A DNA stretch of 32,254 nucleotides from Euzebyales bacterium (GTDB taxonomy: Bacteria > Actinomycetota > Nitriliruptoria > Euzebyales > JAHELV01), in the NCBI GenBank assembly GCA_036374135.1, contig DASUUK010000106.1, forward strand, positions 1 to 32,254, written 5' to 3'. A program made the translations under genes and the position numbers. Positions 9,136 to 23,181 of this stretch are shown one piece after another. Positions within the stretch are counted from its first letter, which is position 1, and each line of letters opens with the position of its first letter. The notes below the pieces were generated by a model. The model saw nothing but the letters and a program-made list of their open reading frames with translations, was not told where the DNA came from and did not search any database.

Positions 9136-10005
9136 CTACCGGAGCGCCAGCAGCCACCGTCGGCGCTGGACGAACCCGGCCGCCTCGTACGCGCGGATCG
9201 CGGCGACGTTGTCGGCCCGCACGTGCAGCGTCACGCACGGCATGCCCGACTCGAGCAACTGCGCGGTCAGTGCGGCGATCCCCCGCCGCGCGAGGCCCTG
9301 GCCGCGCCATCGCCGGTCGACGTAGACACCGGCGAGCTGCGCACCACGACGGCGGCTCTCGATCGACACGTCGAACTTGGCGACCACGCCGCCGTCGGAC
9401 TCCAGCACCCAGCTCGATCCGCGGCGCACGCTGCCGGCGACGCGCTGACGCACAGACGACCGCCCGCCGCGCGACAGCGGCGGACCCATCTGGTCCTCCA
9501 CGTGCAGACCGGCCGCGAACTCCGTCAGCACGTCGACATCATCGGCGGCCGCGCGCCGCAGCACCGTGTCACCGGTCGGCAGCGCCGACGGGCGGTCGGC
9601 GACCATGAGGCGCTGCTCACGCGCGTAGGGACGCCGACGGAACATGCCCGACGCGGCTCCGTCCACGATCGCGTCGCCGATCGTCAGATCGCCGACGAGC
9701 ACCCGCCACCCGGATCCCCGGACCGCGGAGGCCAGCGGTGTCGCCGCCTCGGGCAGGCCGCCCGGAACCACCAGGCCGCCGGCGCCGATGTGGCACACGC
9801 CCCGCGGATCGTCCGGGGAGGGCCACACGGTCATGGAGTGGTGCTCGCCACGATCGAGCGCCTCGAGCAGGAACTGGTGCGCGTACGTACCCTCGGCGGT
9901 GTCCGACGTGCGGCCGAAGTCGGTCTCGAGGCACACGGTCAGACGCGCGACACCGTCGCGGGGCAACCGCACCGCCTGCCCGCCCGGTGAGGCAGCCAGC
10001 GTCAT
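9136..10005 (-). CDS. DUF4081 domain GNAT-family N-acetyltransferase
   Basis: This 289-residue protein has two halves. Residues 1-140 match the DUF4081 region seen in front of actinobacterial GNATs, for example the VCHIGAGGLVVP strand. Residues about 145-289 form a GNAT fold. The acetyl-CoA-binding motif A is LAGVYVDRRWRGQGLARRGI (R-x-x-G-x-A type), and motif B is HVRADNVAAIRAYEAAGF. The substrate is unknown. ATG 10005 starts the domain. It follows the tsaD gene on the same strand, separated by a 190-base spacer filled partly with a 36-bp tandem repeat, so it may be an independent unit. Confidence 0.85.
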   Translation of the reverse strand: MTLAASPGGQAVRLPRDGVARLTVCLETDFGRTSDTAEGTYAHQFLLEALDRGEHHSMTVWPSPDDPRGVCHIGAGGLVVPGGLPEAATPLASAVRGSGWRVLVGDLTIGDAIVDGAASGMFRRRPYAREQRLMVADRPSALPTGDTVLRRAAADDVDVLTEFAAGLHVEDQMGPPLSRGGRSSVRQRVAGSVRRGSSWVLESDGGVVAKFDVSIESRRRGAQLAGVYVDRRWRGQGLARRGIAALTAQLLESGMPCVTLHVRADNVAAIRAYEAAGFVQRRRWLLALR

Positions 10006-10009
10006 GATG

Positions 10010-10117
10010 TGTGCCTACCGCTGACGCTCCTTGAGGCACGGGACGTGCGCCTACCGCTGACGCTCCTTGAGGCGCGGGACGTGCGCCTACCGCTGGGCGT
10101 GCCGAAGGCGCACGACA
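10010..10117. repeat. 36-bp tandem repeat, about three copies
   Basis: Copies lie at 10010-10045 and 10046-10081 and differ at only two positions. A third, diverged copy starts at 10082 and shares TGCGCCTACCGCTG and the GGCGC...GAC end. The array fills much of the spacer between the tsaD stop and the acetyltransferase start. The unit length is a multiple of three, but no gene needs it. Confidence 0.85.
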
Positions 10118-10195
10118 CTGCGCGATGGCGAGGGTTGATGGCCCAGTCCGTGGTGGGTCGGTCGAAGATCCGGGCACACGCCGCGGACCGGGCCA

Positions 10196-11224
10196 TCATC
10201 TCGAGCCCCAGCCCTGCAGCGACAGGCTCGGATCGGCGGCGAGATCGAGTGGTGACCGCTCCCCCTTGCAGAGTCGGTTCCATCCGGCGGCGGCGATCAT
10301 CGCTCCATTATCGGTGCACAGCGACGGCGACGGGGCGAGGAACCGAAGATCTGCCGCCGCGCACGCCTCAGCCATCCGCTCGCGCAGTCGCGAGTTCGCC
10401 GCGACGCCGCCGGCAAGCAGGACCTGGCCCACGTCATGGTCCGTTGCGGCCGCGACGGTCTTGCGCACCGCGACGTCGACCAGCGCCTCCTGGAAGGACG
10501 CGGCGATGTCCGCCAGCGGCAGCTCCTCACCGGCCGCCTGGCGCCGCCGGAGCTCGCGGATGACCGCGGTCTTCAGCCCCGACATCGAGAAGTCGTACGT
10601 CCCGTCGTGCAGCAGCGCGCGGGGGAACCCGATGGCGTCCGGATCGCCGTCCTGCGCCAGCCGGTCGATCTCGGGACCGCCGGGATACGGCAGGCCGATG
10701 AACCGCGCGATCTTGTCGAACGCCTCGCCGGCCGCGTCATCCAGCGTGGCGCCCAGCGTCGTCAGACCGCCGTCGGCGTCCCCGAGGACCAGGCTCGTGT
10801 GGCCGCCACTCATGATGAGCGCGACCAGCGGAGGCTCGAGCAGCCCGAACTCGAGCTGCGCCGCACACACGTGACCCTCCAGGTGGTTGACGCCGATCAG
10901 CGGTGTGTCGTAGGCCAGCGCCAGTGCCTTGGCCGCCGCGACCCCGACCAGTAGCGAGCCGATCAGACCGGGCCCCGCTGTGACCGCGATGCCCTCGATG
11001 TCGCGGTAGGTGGCACCGCCCTCGACCAGCGCCCGGTCCAGGGTCGGCAGCAGCAGGTCGACGTGCGCACGCGCCGCGATCTCGGGCACGACGCCGCCGA
11101 ACGGTCGGTGCCGTTCGATCTGCGACCCGATGACGTTGGCACGCACGGTCACGCCGTCGGCGACGAGCGCGGCCGCGGTCTCGTCACATGATGTCTCGAT
11201 GCCCAGGACCAACACGTCAGTCAC
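10196..11224 (-). CDS. tsaD: tRNA N6-threonylcarbamoyladenosine transferase subunit TsaD
   Basis: This is the 342-residue catalytic subunit that transfers threonylcarbamoyl from its adenylate to A37 of ANN-decoding tRNAs. It has the ASKHA fold and starts VLVLGIETSCDETAAALV. The metal-binding HxxxH is NHLEGHVCAAQ (His114, His118). Other motifs are VVPEIAARAHVDLL, GPGLIGSLLVG, IMSGGHTSLVLG, DDAAGEAFDKIAR and LLAGGVAANSRLR. I chose GTG 11224; GTG 11233 and GTG 11215 are alternatives, because GAGG lies close by and does not decide. It follows tsaE, tsaB and rimI on the same strand, 57 bases after rimI, giving three of the t6A genes together. Confidence 0.96.
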   Translation of the reverse strand: MTDVLVLGIETSCDETAAALVADGVTVRANVIGSQIERHRPFGGVVPEIAARAHVDLLLPTLDRALVEGGATYRDIEGIAVTAGPGLIGSLLVGVAAAKALALAYDTPLIGVNHLEGHVCAAQLEFGLLEPPLVALIMSGGHTSLVLGDADGGLTTLGATLDDAAGEAFDKIARFIGLPYPGGPEIDRLAQDGDPDAIGFPRALLHDGTYDFSMSGLKTAVIRELRRRQAAGEELPLADIAASFQEALVDVAVRKTVAAATDHDVGQVLLAGGVAANSRLRERMAEACAAADLRFLAPSPSLCTDNGAMIAAAGWNRLCKGERSPLDLAADPSLSLQGWGSR

Positions 11225-16049: not shown

Positions 16050-16317
16050 CTCCGCGGGTCTCGCGATTTTCTGCTTGCATCTCAGTCTGTGTGATGATTG
16101 AGTTGATCTAGCTCTGACGGAGCGAAACGCATGCGGATGTGGGACCGCGGCGTGTGCGGAATCGCTGCATCAGTTGCATTGCTTGGCGCTGTCTGTGGGG
16201 GTGCCCCGATGCGTTGTCGTCCGCGCGCATGCGGCGATGACCATCGAGGCGTGCGCTCAGGACTGCGCGTCGTGCCTACCGCGTTGCACGCGGACGACCA
16301 ACGGAGGTTGCACATCC

Positions 16318-19300
16318 ATGATTCGCGCGATCGTCGGTTGGAGCATGAAGTTCCGCGGTCTCGTCATCGCGGTCGCAGCAGGTGTGATGATCCTGGGCGT
16401 CGCGCTGCTGTCGTCGACGGCGGTCGACACGTTGCCGGAGTTCACCCGGCCGACCGTCGAAGTCCAGGCGGAGGCCCTGGGGCTGTCCGCCGAGGAGGTC
16501 GAGCAGCTCATCACCGTGCCGCTCGAGCAGGACCTGCTGAACGGCGTGGCGTTCCTGGAGGAGATCGAGTCCGCCTCGCTGCCAGGCCTGTCGTCGGTCG
16601 TCATGACGTTCGAGGAGGGCACCGACATCCTCGATGCCCGGCAGGTCGTCGCCGAACGCCTGACGCAGGCGGTCGGCGTCGCCGGCCTGCCGGAGGTGTC
16701 GAAGCCACCGGCGATGCTGCAACCGCTGTCGTCGAGCAGCCGCGTGGCCATGGTGCGGCTCACCTCGGAGCAGCAATCGCCGATCGAGATGTCGGTGCTC
16801 GCCCGCTGGGTGATCGCGCCGCGCCTGCTCGGCGTCGAGGGCGTCGCGAACGTGGCGATCTGGGGCTTCCGCGACCGGCAGCTGCAGGTGCTCGTCGACC
16901 CGCAGGACCTGCGCGCCGCCGACGTCTCGCTCAACCAGGTGGTCCGTACGACCGGCAACGCCCTCGAGGTGTCCCCGCTGAGCTTCCTCGAGGCGTCGTC
17001 GCCGGGCACCGGCGGATGGATCGACACGGTCAACCAGCGCCTGCACATCTTCCACGAGCAGGCCATCACCACGCCCGAGGAGCTCGGCCAGGTCCCACTC
17101 GAGGGACCCGGGGGTGGGGCCTTCCGCGTTGATGGCCAGTCGGTCACCCTCGACGAGGTCGCTGACGTCGCCGAAGACCACCAACCACTGATCGGCGACG
17201 CCTACTGCAGTGCCCCGAACGACGACTGCCTGCTGCTCGTGGTCGAGAAGTTCCCGGCCGCGAACACCCCCGAGGTGGCGCGCGGGGTCGACGAGGCCCT
17301 CGAGGTGATGCAGCCGGGACTGGGCGGCATCACGGTCGACACGTCGACCTACCGGCCAGCCGAATACATCAGCAGCGCCTTCGCCGGACTCGGTCGCGCC
17401 GCGGTGATCGGTGCGGTCCTGTTCCTCGCGGTGCTGATCGGGTTTTTCGCGTACTGGCGCACTGCGGTCATCGCGGCCGTCACCGTGCCGCTGGCGCTGG
17501 TCGCGGCGGCGCTGGTGCTCAACCTGCGCGGCGCGACTGTGAACCTGATGGTGATCGCCGGGCTGACTCTGGGACTGGTGGTGATCATCGACGACGCGGT
17601 CGCCGACGTCAGCGGTGTGGCACAGAGCCTGCGACGCAGACGGCAGAACGGATCCGGTGCGCCGGCGTGGCGCACGATCCTCGACGCGACCCTTCAGCTG
17701 CGCACGCCGCTGCTGTACGCGACGGTGATCGCCCTTGCCGCGGTGGTGCCCATGCTGTTCACCGATGGCCTGGCAGGGGCCTTCATCCCGTCGATGCTGA
17801 CGTCGTACGTCCTGGCCGTCGTCACGTCGCTCGTGGTGGCGCTGACGGTCGCACCGGCACTCAGCCTGCTGCTGCTGCGCAACGCGCCACTCGAGCGCCA
17901 CGAATCCCCCCTCACGCGCTGGCTGGGCAGTGGCTACGACCGGGTGTCGGGACGCGCTGTCGGCAGCCTCGGCCCGGCCCTGGCGGCGCTCGCGGTGATC
18001 GTCGTCGCCGGCCTCGTCGCGATCCCATTGCTTGACCTGTCGCTGCGGCCGTCCCTGCGTGAGCGTGACGTGCTGGTCGAGGTCGAGACGGATCCCGGTA
18101 CGTCCCTGCAAACCATGGACGGGGTCATGGCCGAGGCCGTCAGCGCGGTCGGGTCCCTGCCCGGTGTCCGTGATGTGGGCGCCCATGTGGGACGCGCGAT
18201 CACGTCGGACCAGATCGTCAACGTCAACTCCGGCGAGATCTGGGTCACCGTCGACGGATCGGCCGACTACGAGGGCACGCTCGCGGCGATCGACGAGGCG
18301 ATGAGCGGCTTCGACGAGATCGCCCATGACGTGACGACGTACTCGGCGCAGCGCGTCACGGAGGTCCTCGGGCGGCGCGACGCGGACAGCCTGGTCGTGC
18401 GCGTCTACGGCGAGGATCCGGCCGTCCTCGCCGGCGCGGCGGAACAGGTCCGCACAGGCATGGCCGGCATCGACGGCGTGGTCGAGCCCACGATCGAGGC
18501 GCCGCCCGTCGAGCCGACGATCGAGGTCGAGGTGGACCTGGCTGCGGCGGAGGCGAATGACATCAAGCCCGGCGACGTGCGTCGCGCGGCGGCGATCCTG
18601 TTGTCCGGGATCACCGCCGGCAACCTCTTCGAGGAGCAGAAGGTCTTCGACGTCGTCGTGTGGGGGGCGCCGGACATCCGCGAGAACGAGGAGGACATCG
18701 CCAACCTGCTGATCGACAACCCCGCGGGCGGTCAGGTGCGGCTCGGCGACGTCGCTGACGTGCGGGTCGTCGACAACCCTGCCGTGATCCGGCACCACTC
18801 GGTCATGAGCTATGTCGATGTCGTGGCCGACGTCGACGGACGTGATCTCGCCGACGTCGCATCCGACGCAGATGCGGCGATCGAGGGGGTCGTCTTCCCA
18901 CTCGAGTACCACGCCGAGGTCCTGGGCGGGTACGCCGAGCAGAGCACGACGCGGACGACCGTGCTCACCGTGGCAGGCGCGGCCGCGATCGTGATCTTCC
19001 TGCTGCTGCAGGCGGCCTTCGGCAGCTGGCGCCTGGCCGTGCTCGCCTTCCTGCTGCTTCCGACGGCGCTGTCCGGCGGCCTGGTCGCCGCACTGCTGAC
19101 CGACGGTGCGATCACGCTGGGCACGGTCGGCGGTCTGATCGCCGTGCTCGCGATCACGGCACGCGCGCTGATCGTGCTCGTGCGGCACGCCCAGCACCTC
19201 CAGCGCGCCGAGGAGTACGCGTTCGGTCCAGATGTGGTCGTCCGCGCGACGCGTGACCGGCTGGGCACCATCGTCATGGCCGGGCTGGCCACCATCGCCG

Positions 19301-19515
19301 TGTTCCTGCCGTTCGCCGCGCTTGGTGGCGCGGTCGGGTTCGAGATCATCGGACCGATGGCCGTGGCCGTCATCGGCGGCCTGATCACGTCCACCGTCGT
19401 CGTCCTGCTGGTCGCCCCCGCGCTGTACCTGCGCTTCGGACATGTGCGCGAACCTGACACGACCGGCGAGGACCTCGCGTACCGGGTCACCGAGGATCTC
19501 GAGCAGGTGATGTGA
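16318..19515 (+). CDS. RND transporter, CzcA/CusA-like, with altered TM4 motif
   Basis: This 1065-residue inner-membrane pump subunit has the RND layout: one N-terminal helix (about 10-30), a large extracytoplasmic region with VEVQAEALGLSAEEVEQLIT, helices 2-6 at about 355-520, a second large loop and helices 8-12 at the C-terminus. The protonation motif of TM4 reads IIDDAVADVSG: Asp425-Asp426 are present, but the usual Glu-Asn is Ser432-Gly433. A cysteine pair (Cys297, Cys304) is absent from the downstream paralogue. ATG 16318 has GGAGG ten bases upstream; the frame is open back to 16174 but has no Shine-Dalgarno there. The stop overlaps the lipoprotein gene start. The metal or drug substrate is unknown. 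It is probably paired with the second RND. Confidence 0.92.
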   Translation: MIRAIVGWSMKFRGLVIAVAAGVMILGVALLSSTAVDTLPEFTRPTVEVQAEALGLSAEEVEQLITVPLEQDLLNGVAFLEEIESASLPGLSSVVMTFEEGTDILDARQVVAERLTQAVGVAGLPEVSKPPAMLQPLSSSSRVAMVRLTSEQQSPIEMSVLARWVIAPRLLGVEGVANVAIWGFRDRQLQVLVDPQDLRAADVSLNQVVRTTGNALEVSPLSFLEASSPGTGGWIDTVNQRLHIFHEQAITTPEELGQVPLEGPGGGAFRVDGQSVTLDEVADVAEDHQPLIGDAYCSAPNDDCLLLVVEKFPAANTPEVARGVDEALEVMQPGLGGITVDTSTYRPAEYISSAFAGLGRAAVIGAVLFLAVLIGFFAYWRTAVIAAVTVPLALVAAALVLNLRGATVNLMVIAGLTLGLVVIIDDAVADVSGVAQSLRRRRQNGSGAPAWRTILDATLQLRTPLLYATVIALAAVVPMLFTDGLAGAFIPSMLTSYVLAVVTSLVVALTVAPALSLLLLRNAPLERHESPLTRWLGSGYDRVSGRAVGSLGPALAALAVIVVAGLVAIPLLDLSLRPSLRERDVLVEVETDPGTSLQTMDGVMAEAVSAVGSLPGVRDVGAHVGRAITSDQIVNVNSGEIWVTVDGSADYEGTLAAIDEAMSGFDEIAHDVTTYSAQRVTEVLGRRDADSLVVRVYGEDPAVLAGAAEQVRTGMAGIDGVVEPTIEAPPVEPTIEVEVDLAAAEANDIKPGDVRRAAAILLSGITAGNLFEEQKVFDVVVWGAPDIRENEEDIANLLIDNPAGGQVRLGDVADVRVVDNPAVIRHHSVMSYVDVVADVDGRDLADVASDADAAIEGVVFPLEYHAEVLGGYAEQSTTRTTVLTVAGAAAIVIFLLLQAAFGSWRLAVLAFLLLPTALSGGLVAALLTDGAITLGTVGGLIAVLAITARALIVLVRHAQHLQRAEEYAFGPDVVVRATRDRLGTIVMAGLATIAVFLPFAALGGAVGFEIIGPMAVAVIGGLITSTVVVLLVAPALYLRFGHVREPDTTGEDLAYRVTEDLEQVM

Positions 19516-19955
19516 CCGTGACAGCGACGCCTCGCGGCCTGAGGACCTCCGCGGTCGCCCTGCTGCTCGCGGTCGCCGCCGTGGGATGCGGCGAGGTCCC
19601 GTCGGACGAACACGTCATCGACGAGCCCGTGACCGTCGCGGAGATCGAGGGCGCTGACGTCGCCCATCTCACCCTGACGTCCAGCGCTGAGCGGCGGCTC
19701 GACATCACGACAACCACCGTCGAGCAGGTCGACGGCACCACCGTCGTGCCGAACGCGGCGGTGATCGTCGACGAGCACGGCGGCTTCTGGGTCTACACGA
19801 ACCCGGAGCCGCAAGGCTTCGTGCGGGCCCCGATCGAGATCGATCACGAGGAAGGCGACCTGGCGTACCTGGCCGATGGACCGCCTGTGGGCACGTCGGT
19901 CGTGACGCTCGGCGCCGCCGAGCTGTTCGGCGCCGAGCGCGGCATCGGGCACTGA
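19512..19955 (+). CDS. Small lipoprotein resembling the C-terminal part of an RND adaptor
   Basis: This 147-residue protein starts at GTG 19512, overlapping the RND stop as GTGA. A signal peptide (about 10-25, SAVALLLAVAAVG) ends at a lipobox Cys26. The mature part contains TTTTVEQVDGTTVVPNAAVI, DEHGGFWVYTNPEPQGFVRA and VGTSVVTLGAAELFGAERGI, which resembles the membrane-proximal end of periplasmic adaptor (membrane fusion) proteins of CusB/CzcB type. The hairpin, lipoyl and most barrel domains of a full adaptor (about 400 residues) are missing. With no outer membrane expected, a short adaptor attached to the membrane and contacting the two RND subunits is plausible. Its place between them supports a tripartite unit. 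Confidence 0.8.
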   Translation: MTVTATPRGLRTSAVALLLAVAAVGCGEVPSDEHVIDEPVTVAEIEGADVAHLTLTSSAERRLDITTTTVEQVDGTTVVPNAAVIVDEHGGFWVYTNPEPQGFVRAPIEIDHEEGDLAYLADGPPVGTSVVTLGAAELFGAERGIGH

Positions 19956-19971
19956 GGACGGGAGGCGGCAG

Positions 19972-22900
19972 ATGCTTCGCTGGGTCGTCGGATCAAGCCT
20001 CAAGTTCCGCTACCTCGTGGTGGCGTTCGCCGCGGGCCTCATCTTCTTCGGCGTCGACACGCTGCGTCACAGCGCTGTCGACGTGTTCCCCGAGTTCGCG
20101 CCCCCAAAAGTCGAGATCCAGACGCCATCGCTGGGCCTGTCAGCCTCGGAGGTGGAGGAGCTCATCACGGTCCCCCTGGAGCACAGCCTCAACGGCGTGC
20201 CCAACCTCGACGTCATCCGCTCGCGATCCGTCGAGCAGCTGTCGTCGATCGAGATGATCTTCGAACCCGGCACCGATTTGTTGACGGCGCGGCAACTCGT
20301 CCAGGAGCGCATCGCGGCGATCACGCCCAGCCTGCCGAGCTGGTCCAGCCCGCCCTTCATGATCCAGCCGCTGTCCGCGACGAGCCGCGTGCTCAAGATC
20401 GGGCTCACCTCGACTGACCCCGAGATCGACATGATGGACCTGTCGATGACGGCGTACTGGAAGATCCGGGCGCGCCTGCTCCGCGTCCCGGGGGTGGCCA
20501 ACGTGCCCATCTGGGGCGAGCGGCTGGACATGTTACAGGTCCAGACGGACCCACAACGCATGGCCGAGCACGGCGTGAAGCTCGAGCAGGTCCTCGACAC
20601 CACGGCGAACGCACTCGACCACGGGTTGATGCAGTACACGGAGGGCCGGAACATCGGCACCGGCGGATGGGTCGAGACGGGGTCCAACCGGCTGGGGGTC
20701 CAGCTCATCCAACCGATCGTGACGGTCGAGGACCTGGCGAACCTGCCCATCGAGCCGGCCGATGCCGCCACGCAGGTCAACGGACAGACCGTCAACGGCG
20801 CACAGGTCAACGGGAGAAGCGTCGATCCCGTGCGCATCGCCGACGTGGCGGACCTCGTGCGTGACCATCAGCCGCTGATCGGCGACGCTGTGATCGACGA
20901 CGGCCAGGGCCTCATGCTCATCGTCGAGAAGCTGCCCTGGGCGAACACCGTCGACGTCACAGAAGGCGTCGAGCAGGCGTTGGCCGAACTGGAGCCCGGC
21001 CTGCCCGGCATCGGGATCGACAGCGCGATCTTCCGCCCGGCGACGTTCATAGAGCAGGCGATCGACAACCTGTCGACCGCCATGCTGGTCGGCGCGCTGC
21101 TGATGATCTTCATGCTCGGCGCGTTCCTCTACGAGTGGCGCACCGCGTTCATCAGCGTGGTGGCGATCCCGCTATCGCTGATCGCGGCCGGCCTGGTCCT
21201 GCACGCGCGCGACGCGACGATCAACACGATGATCCTGGCGGGTTTCGTCATCGCGCTCGGCGACATCGTCGACGATGCGATCATCGACATCGAAAACGTC
21301 GTGCGAAGACTCCGCGAGCATCGACAAGCGGGCTCGAGACGCCCCACGGCACGCATCGTCCTCGACGCGTCGATGGAGGTGCGCAGCGCGATCGTCCACG
21401 CGACGCTGATCGAGATCGCGGCGATCACCCCGATCTTCATGCTCCAGGGCCTGTCGGGGTCGTTCTTCCGGCCGCTCGCCACGTCGTACGCGCTGGCGCT
21501 GCTCGCCTCGATGGTGGTGGCGCTGACCGTCACGCCGGCGCTGAGCCTGATCTTCTTCCGCTCCGAGAAGTCGCTGCGGCACCGCGAGTCGCCGCTCGTG
21601 CCGCCGATCAAGCGCGCCTACGACGCCTTGCTGCGGCGGATCGTCCGCCGTCCGCGGCCCGCCTACGGCGCGGTCGCGGTCGTCACCCTGGCGGGGCTGG
21701 CGATCGTGCCCGTGCTCGGCCAGAACCTGCTGCCGTCGTTCAAGGAGCGCGACTTCCTGATGCACTGGCTCGGGACGCCGAGCACGTCCCACCCCGAGAT
21801 GGTGCGCACGACCGAGCGCGTCAACGCCGAGCTGCTGCAGATCCCCGGCGTGCTCAACGCCGGTTCGCACATCGGGCAGGCGCTGCTGATGGACGAGGTC
21901 GTCGGCATGTACTTCGGCGAGAACTGGGTCAGCGTCGACCCGGCCGTGGACTACGACATGACCTTCGAGCACATCCAGGCCACCGTCGACGGCTATCCGG
22001 GCATCTTCCGTGACGTCCAGACATACCTCAAGGAACGCATCCGCGAGGTCCTCACCGGATCGAGCGAGGCGATCACGGTGCGGATCTACGGCACGGAGCT
22101 GGAGCTGTTGCGCGAGAAGGCCGCCGAGGTCAACGAGCTACTCGGCGCGATACCGGGGGTCACGGAGAACCACGTCGAGTTCCAGGAGGAGATCCCACAG
22201 ATCCAGGTGGAGGTCGATCTGGAGGCTGCCGAGGCGCACGGCGTCAAGCCCGGTGACGTCCGACGCGCGGCTGCGTACATGATGGCTGGAGAGGAGGCCG
22301 GTGATCTGTTCCACCAGGGCAAGGCGTACGACGTCCAGCTGTGGACCACGCCCGAGACCCGTCAGACGCTGACCGACATCGAGCAGCTGCCGATCGACAC
22401 GCCGTCCGGCGAGAAGGTGCCACTGGCCGATCTGGCCAGCATCGACATCGTGCCGACACCCAACGTGATCCACCACGAGAACCTGGCGCGCAGCATCGAC
22501 GTCGGCGCCAACATCGACGGGACCCGCGACCTCGGCTCCGTGGTGACCGACCTCGAGGAGCAAATCGCCAGCGTCGAGTGGCCACTCGAGTTCCGCGCCG
22601 AGCTGCTCGGCGAGTACCAGGAGCGTCAAGCGGCGCAGGGCGTCCTCATGGCGTTCGCCGTCGCGGCCGCGATCATCGTGTTCCTGCTGCTGCAGCAGGC
22701 GTTCCACAGCAGCTTCAGGCTCGCCCTGCTGTACTTCCTCACGCTACCCGTGGCGCTGGTCGGCGGGGTGCTGGCCGCGTACTTCGGCGCCGGTGGCATC
22801 ATCTCGCTGGGATCGCTGGTCGGGTTCTTCACCGTGCTGGGCATCGTCGCGCGCAACGGCATCATGCTGATCAGCCACTACCAGCACCTGGAGAACGAGG

Positions 22901-23181
22901 AGGGCATGCCGTTCGGCGTCGACCTGATCCTCCGCGGCGCCAAGGAACGCATCGTGCCGATCCTGATGACCGTCTTCACGACCGGACTCGCACTGGTCCC
23001 CCTGATCCTGGCGGGCGAGATCCCAGGCACGGAGGTCGAATATCCCATGGCGATCGTCATCCTGGGCGGGCTCGTCACTGCGACGCTGCTCAACCTGTTC
23101 GTCGTGCCGCCGCTGTACCTGCGCTTCGCGAAGGGATGGTCAAGGCGGCGGCCGGATGCGTCGACTCCGCAGGAGGCCTGA
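19972..23181 (+). CDS. RND transporter, CzcA/CusA-like (canonical TM4)
   Basis: This 1069-residue RND pump is paralogous to the gene upstream; both begin with a VG-S-x-K-F-R-x-L-V segment and share PEF, LGLSA-EVE-LITVPLE and FEPGTD. TM4 carries GDIVDDAIIDIENVVRR with Asp434, Asp435 and Glu441, corresponding to CzcA Asp408 and Glu415, so proton coupling looks intact. It has two extracytoplasmic loops and 12 predicted helices, ending VVPPLYLRF. A repeated VNGQ/VNGA/VNGR stretch lies at about residues 267-283. ATG 19972 follows the lipoprotein stop by 16 bases with GGGAGG upstream. CzcA/CusA relatives export heavy metals, but no specificity can be asserted here. A hairpin follows the stop. Confidence 0.94.
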   Translation: MLRWVVGSSLKFRYLVVAFAAGLIFFGVDTLRHSAVDVFPEFAPPKVEIQTPSLGLSASEVEELITVPLEHSLNGVPNLDVIRSRSVEQLSSIEMIFEPGTDLLTARQLVQERIAAITPSLPSWSSPPFMIQPLSATSRVLKIGLTSTDPEIDMMDLSMTAYWKIRARLLRVPGVANVPIWGERLDMLQVQTDPQRMAEHGVKLEQVLDTTANALDHGLMQYTEGRNIGTGGWVETGSNRLGVQLIQPIVTVEDLANLPIEPADAATQVNGQTVNGAQVNGRSVDPVRIADVADLVRDHQPLIGDAVIDDGQGLMLIVEKLPWANTVDVTEGVEQALAELEPGLPGIGIDSAIFRPATFIEQAIDNLSTAMLVGALLMIFMLGAFLYEWRTAFISVVAIPLSLIAAGLVLHARDATINTMILAGFVIALGDIVDDAIIDIENVVRRLREHRQAGSRRPTARIVLDASMEVRSAIVHATLIEIAAITPIFMLQGLSGSFFRPLATSYALALLASMVVALTVTPALSLIFFRSEKSLRHRESPLVPPIKRAYDALLRRIVRRPRPAYGAVAVVTLAGLAIVPVLGQNLLPSFKERDFLMHWLGTPSTSHPEMVRTTERVNAELLQIPGVLNAGSHIGQALLMDEVVGMYFGENWVSVDPAVDYDMTFEHIQATVDGYPGIFRDVQTYLKERIREVLTGSSEAITVRIYGTELELLREKAAEVNELLGAIPGVTENHVEFQEEIPQIQVEVDLEAAEAHGVKPGDVRRAAAYMMAGEEAGDLFHQGKAYDVQLWTTPETRQTLTDIEQLPIDTPSGEKVPLADLASIDIVPTPNVIHHENLARSIDVGANIDGTRDLGSVVTDLEEQIASVEWPLEFRAELLGEYQERQAAQGVLMAFAVAAAIIVFLLLQQAFHSSFRLALLYFLTLPVALVGGVLAAYFGAGGIISLGSLVGFFTVLGIVARNGIMLISHYQHLENEEGMPFGVDLILRGAKERIVPILMTVFTTGLALVPLILAGEIPGTEVEYPMAIVILGGLVTATLLNLFVVPPLYLRFAKGWSRRRPDASTPQEA

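Follow-up and report, generated by a model that had tools for sequence, protein, structure and literature searches.

A gene lying between two RND permease genes in the window (the whole stretch of DNA analysed here, 32,254 nucleotides from a Euzebyales bacterium) encodes a small predicted lipoprotein which, judging from its modelled fold, is a variant of the RND adaptors that consists of the membrane-proximal (MP) domain only. We did not file it as a canonical RND adaptor because it lacks three of the defining domain features. The protein is probably the lipid-anchored, single-domain docking or activating subunit of a two-component RND pump, and its relatives point to an origin by deletion from longer adaptors.

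The adaptor gene and its neighbours

The adaptor gene (19512-19955, forward strand, as are all features of the window given below) starts with GTG at 19512, stops at 19953-19955, and encodes 147 residues. Its codon-position G+C (0.74/0.48/0.90) is coding-like and agrees with that of both RND genes. Compared with the copy in another member of the same genus, dN was 0.21 and dS 0.69, and the resulting dN/dS of approximately 0.30 indicates that the gene is under purifying selection. The reading frame was confirmed as a genuine gene.

The upstream permease, RND1 (16318-19515), has a mechanical reading frame that opens at 16174, and its likely start is the ATG at 16318, where the match begins. The RND1 stop and the adaptor start overlap by four bases, GTGA (19512-19515), which suggests that translation of the two is coupled. 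The downstream permease, RND2 (19972-23181), follows the adaptor stop after 16 bases, which contain GGGAGG (19960-19965), the likely ribosome-binding site of RND2. We also scanned 10 neighbouring frames in the window. They encode housekeeping, hydrolase or oligopeptide-transport genes, apart from one without a match, and no metal-resistance context was found among them. As the flanking genes are unrelated, we regard RND1, the adaptor and RND2 as a three-gene cassette. Furthermore, ORFs were compared all against all in the window and 58 named loci, which were drawn from a collection with one genome per species, with shadow frames of the three cassette genes set aside. No further partner gene was widely conserved besides these three; two-component regulators and ABC genes were present at some of these loci only.

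The first 25 residues form a predicted signal peptide (19512-19586) whose hydrophobic stretch ends in AVG directly before Cys26. This end, AVGC, fits a PROSITE-type lipobox pattern, and the cysteine (codon at 19587-19589) is kept in at least 90% of an alignment of 16 rows. Cys26 would therefore be the lipidated residue. The mature chain from Cys26 to His147 counts 122 residues, not the 121 given by an earlier, sequence-only reading. Across 59 proteins of all forms, a looser lipobox pattern matches 55 and is missing from 4, while the strict pattern matches 35 of the 52 MP-only proteins and misses several that have an obvious cysteine.

Fold and domain content

Searches with the single sequence found no match in Pfam. 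In NCBIfam, there was a weak match to positions 246-313 of the 322-position profile TIGR01730 (E 0.011, 14.7 bits), below the curated cut-off of 94.9; among 33 family members, 17 match this model weakly, the best with E 2.7e-5. Sequence searches of the PDB returned only chance matches; the profile used in one of them was poor, as one of its rows carried a long extension. The structure of the 122-residue mature chain was predicted from an alignment (A4) in which the window protein is joined by sequences from 32 of the 58 named loci, with a pLDDT of 88.6 and a pTM of 0.79. The best structural match was CusB in the CusBA complex (3ne5_C; Z 13.6, 2.2 Å over 96 residues, span 79-393), and ZneB was matched as well (3lnn_A; Z 13.5, 1.7 Å over 95 residues, span 10-350). 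The top 22 ranks were all adaptors or adaptor complexes. Foldseek, however, gave a best E of only 4.5e-3 for the same model. Chance resemblance to adaptors was considered and ruled out, since the first non-adaptor fold came at Z 3.7.

The MP domain of an adaptor is composed of both ends of its chain. The aligned spans of CusB and ZneB reach from near the N-terminal to the C-terminal chain end, and the model therefore comprises the whole domain, not its C-terminal part alone. According to this model, the window protein is a complete two-piece MP domain of the CusB/ZneB type. The N-terminal piece (approximately residues 38-73, 19623-19730) was placed by the structural alignment with ZneB, in which model residue 13 onward pairs with ZneB residue 10 onward, and by profile alignment with longer relatives that have a beta-barrel and an MP domain (barrel+MP relatives). 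The C-terminal piece (residues 74-147, 19731-19952) was placed by profile alignments and by the TIGR01730 positions given above. The junction of residues 73 and 74 is the point where relatives hold the beta-barrel; alignment with the barrel+MP relatives opens a gap at residue 73, and the barrel is missing from the window protein. Neither a lipoyl domain nor an alpha-hairpin was found in the 122-residue model or in the Pfam and NCBIfam searches.

The sequence-only reading had taken the protein for a lipoprotein with the MP domain of an RND adaptor, and had proposed a superposition on the CusB MP domain. Fold, profiles and predicted lipobox agree with it, and the superposition gave the CusB match described above, with no sign of an unrelated fold. 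It was also right that the lipoyl and hairpin domains are gone, as both the model and the sequence searches indicate, but its list was incomplete, as the beta-barrel is gone too. Its description of the protein as only the C-terminal part of an adaptor holds for the C-terminal piece; the restriction does not, because residues ~38-73 match the N-terminal MP strands.

In alignment A2, which contains 16 of the 17 genuine matches (L012, at a contig edge, was omitted), the invariant columns are P80, A83, G90, Y95, L120, G123, P124, G127, V130, V131, G134 and G140. These columns bear on the idea that the protein is a CusF-like substrate-binding lipoprotein or metallochaperone that passes substrate to the pump and is no adaptor. 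A small extracytoplasmic protein beside a CusA/CzcA-like pump would suit that role, and MP domains themselves are thought to be involved in cargo presentation, according to the parts of PMC4446572 consulted here. However, the fold is that of an adaptor MP domain, and the invariant columns include no Met, His or Cys, so that no conserved metal site is seen; the near-invariant Cys26 is the predicted lipid anchor. We consider the metallochaperone role unlikely and continue with the protein as an MP-only adaptor.

The RND pair

Both permeases match ACR_tran of Pfam over their full length (RND1, E 7.8e-153; RND2, E 4e-196). The best NCBIfam model for both is TIGR00914 (CusA/CzcA, HME), with 349.6 bits for RND1 and 511.2 bits for RND2, each below the cut-off of 701.45. 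Residues at the proton-relay positions (AcrB numbering) are kept in RND2 at 53 of 53 loci, namely D407, D408, R971 and T978, with Arg at K940. RND1 keeps D408 at 52 of 52 loci and D407 at 18, with Gly at 28 and D407 lacking at 34 in all. The RND1 of the window has both Asp residues and an Ala at T978. On these residues, the pair looks asymmetric, with RND1 as the more diverged partner. Further, the positions of M573, M623 and M672, the Cu/Ag methionine site of CusA, are occupied by E/S/V in the RND1 of the window and by H/F/V in RND2. As these methionines are not kept, a Cu/Ag pump of the CusA type is unlikely.

Distribution and link to the RND pair

We sampled 396 genomes from the phylum and found relatives of the adaptor in 14 of them. 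A fifteenth, with locus L019 (E 9e-4), was discarded as a chance match on inspection. With a threshold of E 1e-60, RND proteins are found in 34 of the 396 genomes, 16 of which have one close to RND2 and 18 only distant ones (approximately 26-31% identity). The adaptor is present in 14 of the 16 genomes with a close RND2 relative, and in the other two (G251 and G002) the RND2 gene is broken by a contig end. None of the 18 genomes whose RND proteins are all distant yielded an adaptor. At 55 of the 58 named loci, the adaptor gene is flanked on either side by an RND gene no more than 2.5 kb away; the exceptions lie at a contig end (L029), have the upstream RND gene 3.1 kb away (L068), or have no RND gene (L051).

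Within the class of the window's bacterium, 3 of 66 genomes contain the adaptor. Given this rarity, the cassette may move between lineages. No adaptor relative was found in viral contigs.

Two loci differ in arrangement. Genome G088 (L103, C68:15500-24500) has two MP-only adaptor genes, one ahead of each RND gene, which is the only such case in the 60 sequences scanned and gives a hint that the RND subunits may each be served by a separate adaptor. In Arthrobacter sp. ISL-28, the 20-kb locus L051 contains an MP-only adaptor gene and no RND gene, and the same strain has a complete cassette at L060.

Probable origin by domain loss

Most of the 58 loci encode an adaptor of the size of the window protein. 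Seven loci from Rokubacteria and Chloroflexota (L044, L045, L052, L068, L069, L070 and L080) encode a longer protein in which additional sequence separates the two MP pieces. A profile alignment between the MP-only proteins and these barrel+MP relatives has one internal gap and extends over 142 columns (E 5e-52). The MP-only profile also matches that of full-length relatives (E 1e-19), and barrel+MP proteins align with full-length adaptors over 231 columns (E 5e-39), with a gap at the lipoyl and hairpin part. The full-length relatives compared are from Hymenobacter, Sphingobium and Methylomonas plasmids, and their loci have just one RND gene, together with a gene of the TolC family. From these alignments, the adaptor appears in graded forms, which are full length, barrel+MP, and MP only. 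The barrel of the middle form is a sequence-alignment assignment and not one of fold, as the predicted structure of a barrel+MP relative was poor (pLDDT 59). Two of the plasmid adaptors, from Sphingobium (L097, 5233-6210) and Methylomonas (L098, 5287-6231), apparently do not have most of the lipoyl part; their alignment with longer relatives covers the hairpin and the barrel, and their operons include a TolC-family gene.

A protein so short, and under the curated cut-off of every family, could be read as a truncated or decaying adaptor pseudogene whose remainder was lost. Against this, proteins of equal size occupy the same place in several phyla, with dozens of species among them, and the profile alignment with barrel+MP relatives shows that nothing of a barrel or hairpin is left where the two MP pieces of the window protein join. 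The purifying selection on the gene, and the overlap of its start with the stop of an intact RND1, argue in the same direction. A nearby full-length adaptor, which the sequence-only reading had named as a sign of truncation, was not found. On the conservation, the dN/dS and the intact neighbours, we rejected the pseudogene explanation, which we regard as highly improbable. The alternative that we retain is a working MP-only adaptor of reduced form.

To place the forms, a tree of RND2 was built from 61 sequences, 55 of them from the 58 loci, one from the window and 5 from systems with full-length adaptors; loci without a sufficiently long downstream RND frame were left out. A single clade (support 100) unites all 56 proteins whose adaptor is reduced, and those accompanied by a full-length adaptor fall outside it. 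On this tree, the barrel+MP form requires at least three changes. The MP-only locus L027 of Rokubacteria is sister to the barrel+MP locus L044 (support 100), and its adaptor (10001-10522) has an Ala/Gly-rich low-complexity linker and an apparent last barrel strand left over. The sister placement and the leftover strand together point to an independent reduction in Rokubacteria. We infer the root, and the direction of change elsewhere in the tree, on the grounds that domain loss is likelier than regain; the outgroup branch is long. The MP-only form thus appears to have arisen by deletion, with at least one independent case in Rokubacteria, and to be reduced, not ancestral. The sequence-only reading had offered ancestral and streamlined as alternatives; the longer relatives and the RND tree speak for the second.

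Channels, other adaptors and the envelope

No match to PF02321 (OEP/TolC) was found in the window's genome, which is 96% complete, or in its congener G003, and control searches were positive in E. coli and 6 other genomes. In total, 7 of 11 tested genomes have no OEP/TolC protein (those of the window, its congener, Arthrobacter, Lentzea, Rhizohabitans, Trueperaceae and one Chloroflexota). The other 4 carriers, Rhodoferax, Gemmatimonadota and two Rokubacteria, have TolC-family proteins. No TolC gene was found among the 10 large neighbouring ORFs scanned at loci of diderm carriers (L067, L025, L027 and L070). In Rhodoferax ferrireducens OTU1 (L067), an MP-only adaptor gene lies between two RND genes in a diderm, and this adaptor has no lipobox.

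The TolC-family proteins that diderm carriers keep elsewhere in their genomes would suit a further possibility, in which the adaptor is split and the window protein makes up half of it, or serves as a spacer beneath an envelope conduit of some kind, and a different protein contributes the barrel, lipoyl and hairpin parts. However, the Rhodoferax contig with the RND pair (C303) has no TolC-family match. TIGR01730 has one good match elsewhere in the window's genome, a MacA-like protein whose gene adjoins an ABC/MacB pair, and its weak matches are on other contigs, so that no second protein is seen from which the RND pair could obtain the missing domains. We rate a split adaptor or spacer as slightly less probable still than the metallochaperone role. 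Elsewhere in the same genome, a solitary RND permease gene (L105, G000:C94, 3823-7518; 1231 residues) adjoins an ABC ATPase gene; no adaptor match was found on that contig.

The sequence-only reading had held that loss of the channel-reaching domains makes sense in a monoderm. This fits the lack of TolC in the window's genome, but not the carriers in Rhodoferax, Gemmatimonadota and Rokubacteria, whose TolC-family proteins indicate that a monoderm envelope is not the whole reason for the reduction. The reduced MP-only adaptor seems to go with the lack of a dedicated channel at the locus, not strictly with a monoderm envelope, and, given the TolC-bearing diderm carriers, some members might still work with a channel.

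Proposed role

We infer docking on RND1 and RND2 from gene order and homology; what is proposed here about lipidation, activation, substrate class and stoichiometry is inferred as well. In the proposed mechanism, the barrel, lipoyl and hairpin domains between the two halves of the adaptor would have been deleted, and the lipid-anchored MP domain would be positioned at the outer side of the cytoplasmic membrane, adjoining the porter domains of RND1 and RND2. The adaptor would do the tasks of the MP domain only, which are to help capture or present substrate and to switch the transporter on. With no conduit to a channel, the pump would be two-component and would release substrate just outside the cytoplasmic membrane. 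The MP domain would be kept alone because only the cargo and activation tasks remain. The parts of the literature consulted here are consistent with such tasks. In PMC4446572, MP domains are described as present without exception in adaptors paired with transporters that have large periplasmic domains, and cargo selection and presentation is the favoured role; PMC4338810 proposes that the transporter is stimulated when the MP domain changes conformation. That the window protein activates rather than presents is a narrower proposal, in which we have less confidence than in the adaptor subunit as such.

Comparison with known systems

CusB and ZneB, the heavy-metal RND adaptors of CusCBA and ZneCAB, share with the window protein the MP fold, its two-piece make-up and a gene adjacent to RND. 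In contrast, the window adaptor has no barrel, lipoyl domain, hairpin or channel gene and is placed between two RND genes, and the window's permeases do not have the CusA methionine positions tested. MdtB/MdtC and MuxB/MuxC combine two different RND subunits in one pump with a full-length adaptor and a channel. They share with the window two unlike RND genes and one adaptor in one operon, whereas the adaptor gene of the window lies between the RND genes.

BesA of Borrelia (Z 9.5 with our model) is also a reduced RND adaptor with an MP domain. It has lost only the hairpin and works with the channel BesC, as stated in the consulted parts of PMC4446572 and PMC4338810, whereas the barrel and the lipoyl domain are absent from the window protein too. 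YknX of Bacillus and other Gram-positive adaptors resemble the window protein in serving cells without a classical outer membrane, and YknX, by the account in the consulted parts of PMC4446572, is so far the only Gram-positive adaptor with an MP domain; it differs in its ABC transporter partner and in the prominent hairpin described there. MmpS of mycobacteria (e.g., in MmpS5L5), as far as the consulted descriptions go, is likewise a small actinobacterial accessory subunit of an RND (MmpL) pump. The RND partner family differs, as the window's partners match ACR_tran. MmpS was not among the fold-search matches, and the two may still be related.

Full-text searches of open-access literature turned up no description of an MP-only RND adaptor, and the consulted parts of PMC4446572 and PMC4338810 make no mention of the form. 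The phylogeny of HME, NFE and HAE-1 pumps in PMC10872679, in the part consulted, omitted Gram-positive phyla, so that such RND pairs would for the most part be missing from it.

Significance

Beyond the window, we see about even chances that there is a class of two-component RND pumps in Actinomycetota, Chloroflexota and some diderm phyla, in which an asymmetric RND pair works with an MP-only adaptor acting purely as allosteric activator and substrate presenter, and the adaptor was reduced stepwise, more than once. Adaptors are described as modular in the consulted parts of PMC4446572, with BesA having no hairpin and EmrA no MP domain, and the hairpins of Gram-positive adaptors are reported as a puzzle there and in PMC4338810. 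The MP-only family supplies the expected case that had been missing and goes beyond it, in that the transporter-facing domain alone remains. It bears on the old question of whether adaptors do more than bridge pump and channel. If the proposal is true, the MP domain alone would be a sufficient working adaptor where no conduit is needed. The MP-only adaptor offers a small, ready-made reagent for the function of the MP domain by itself, without the usual outer-membrane channel.
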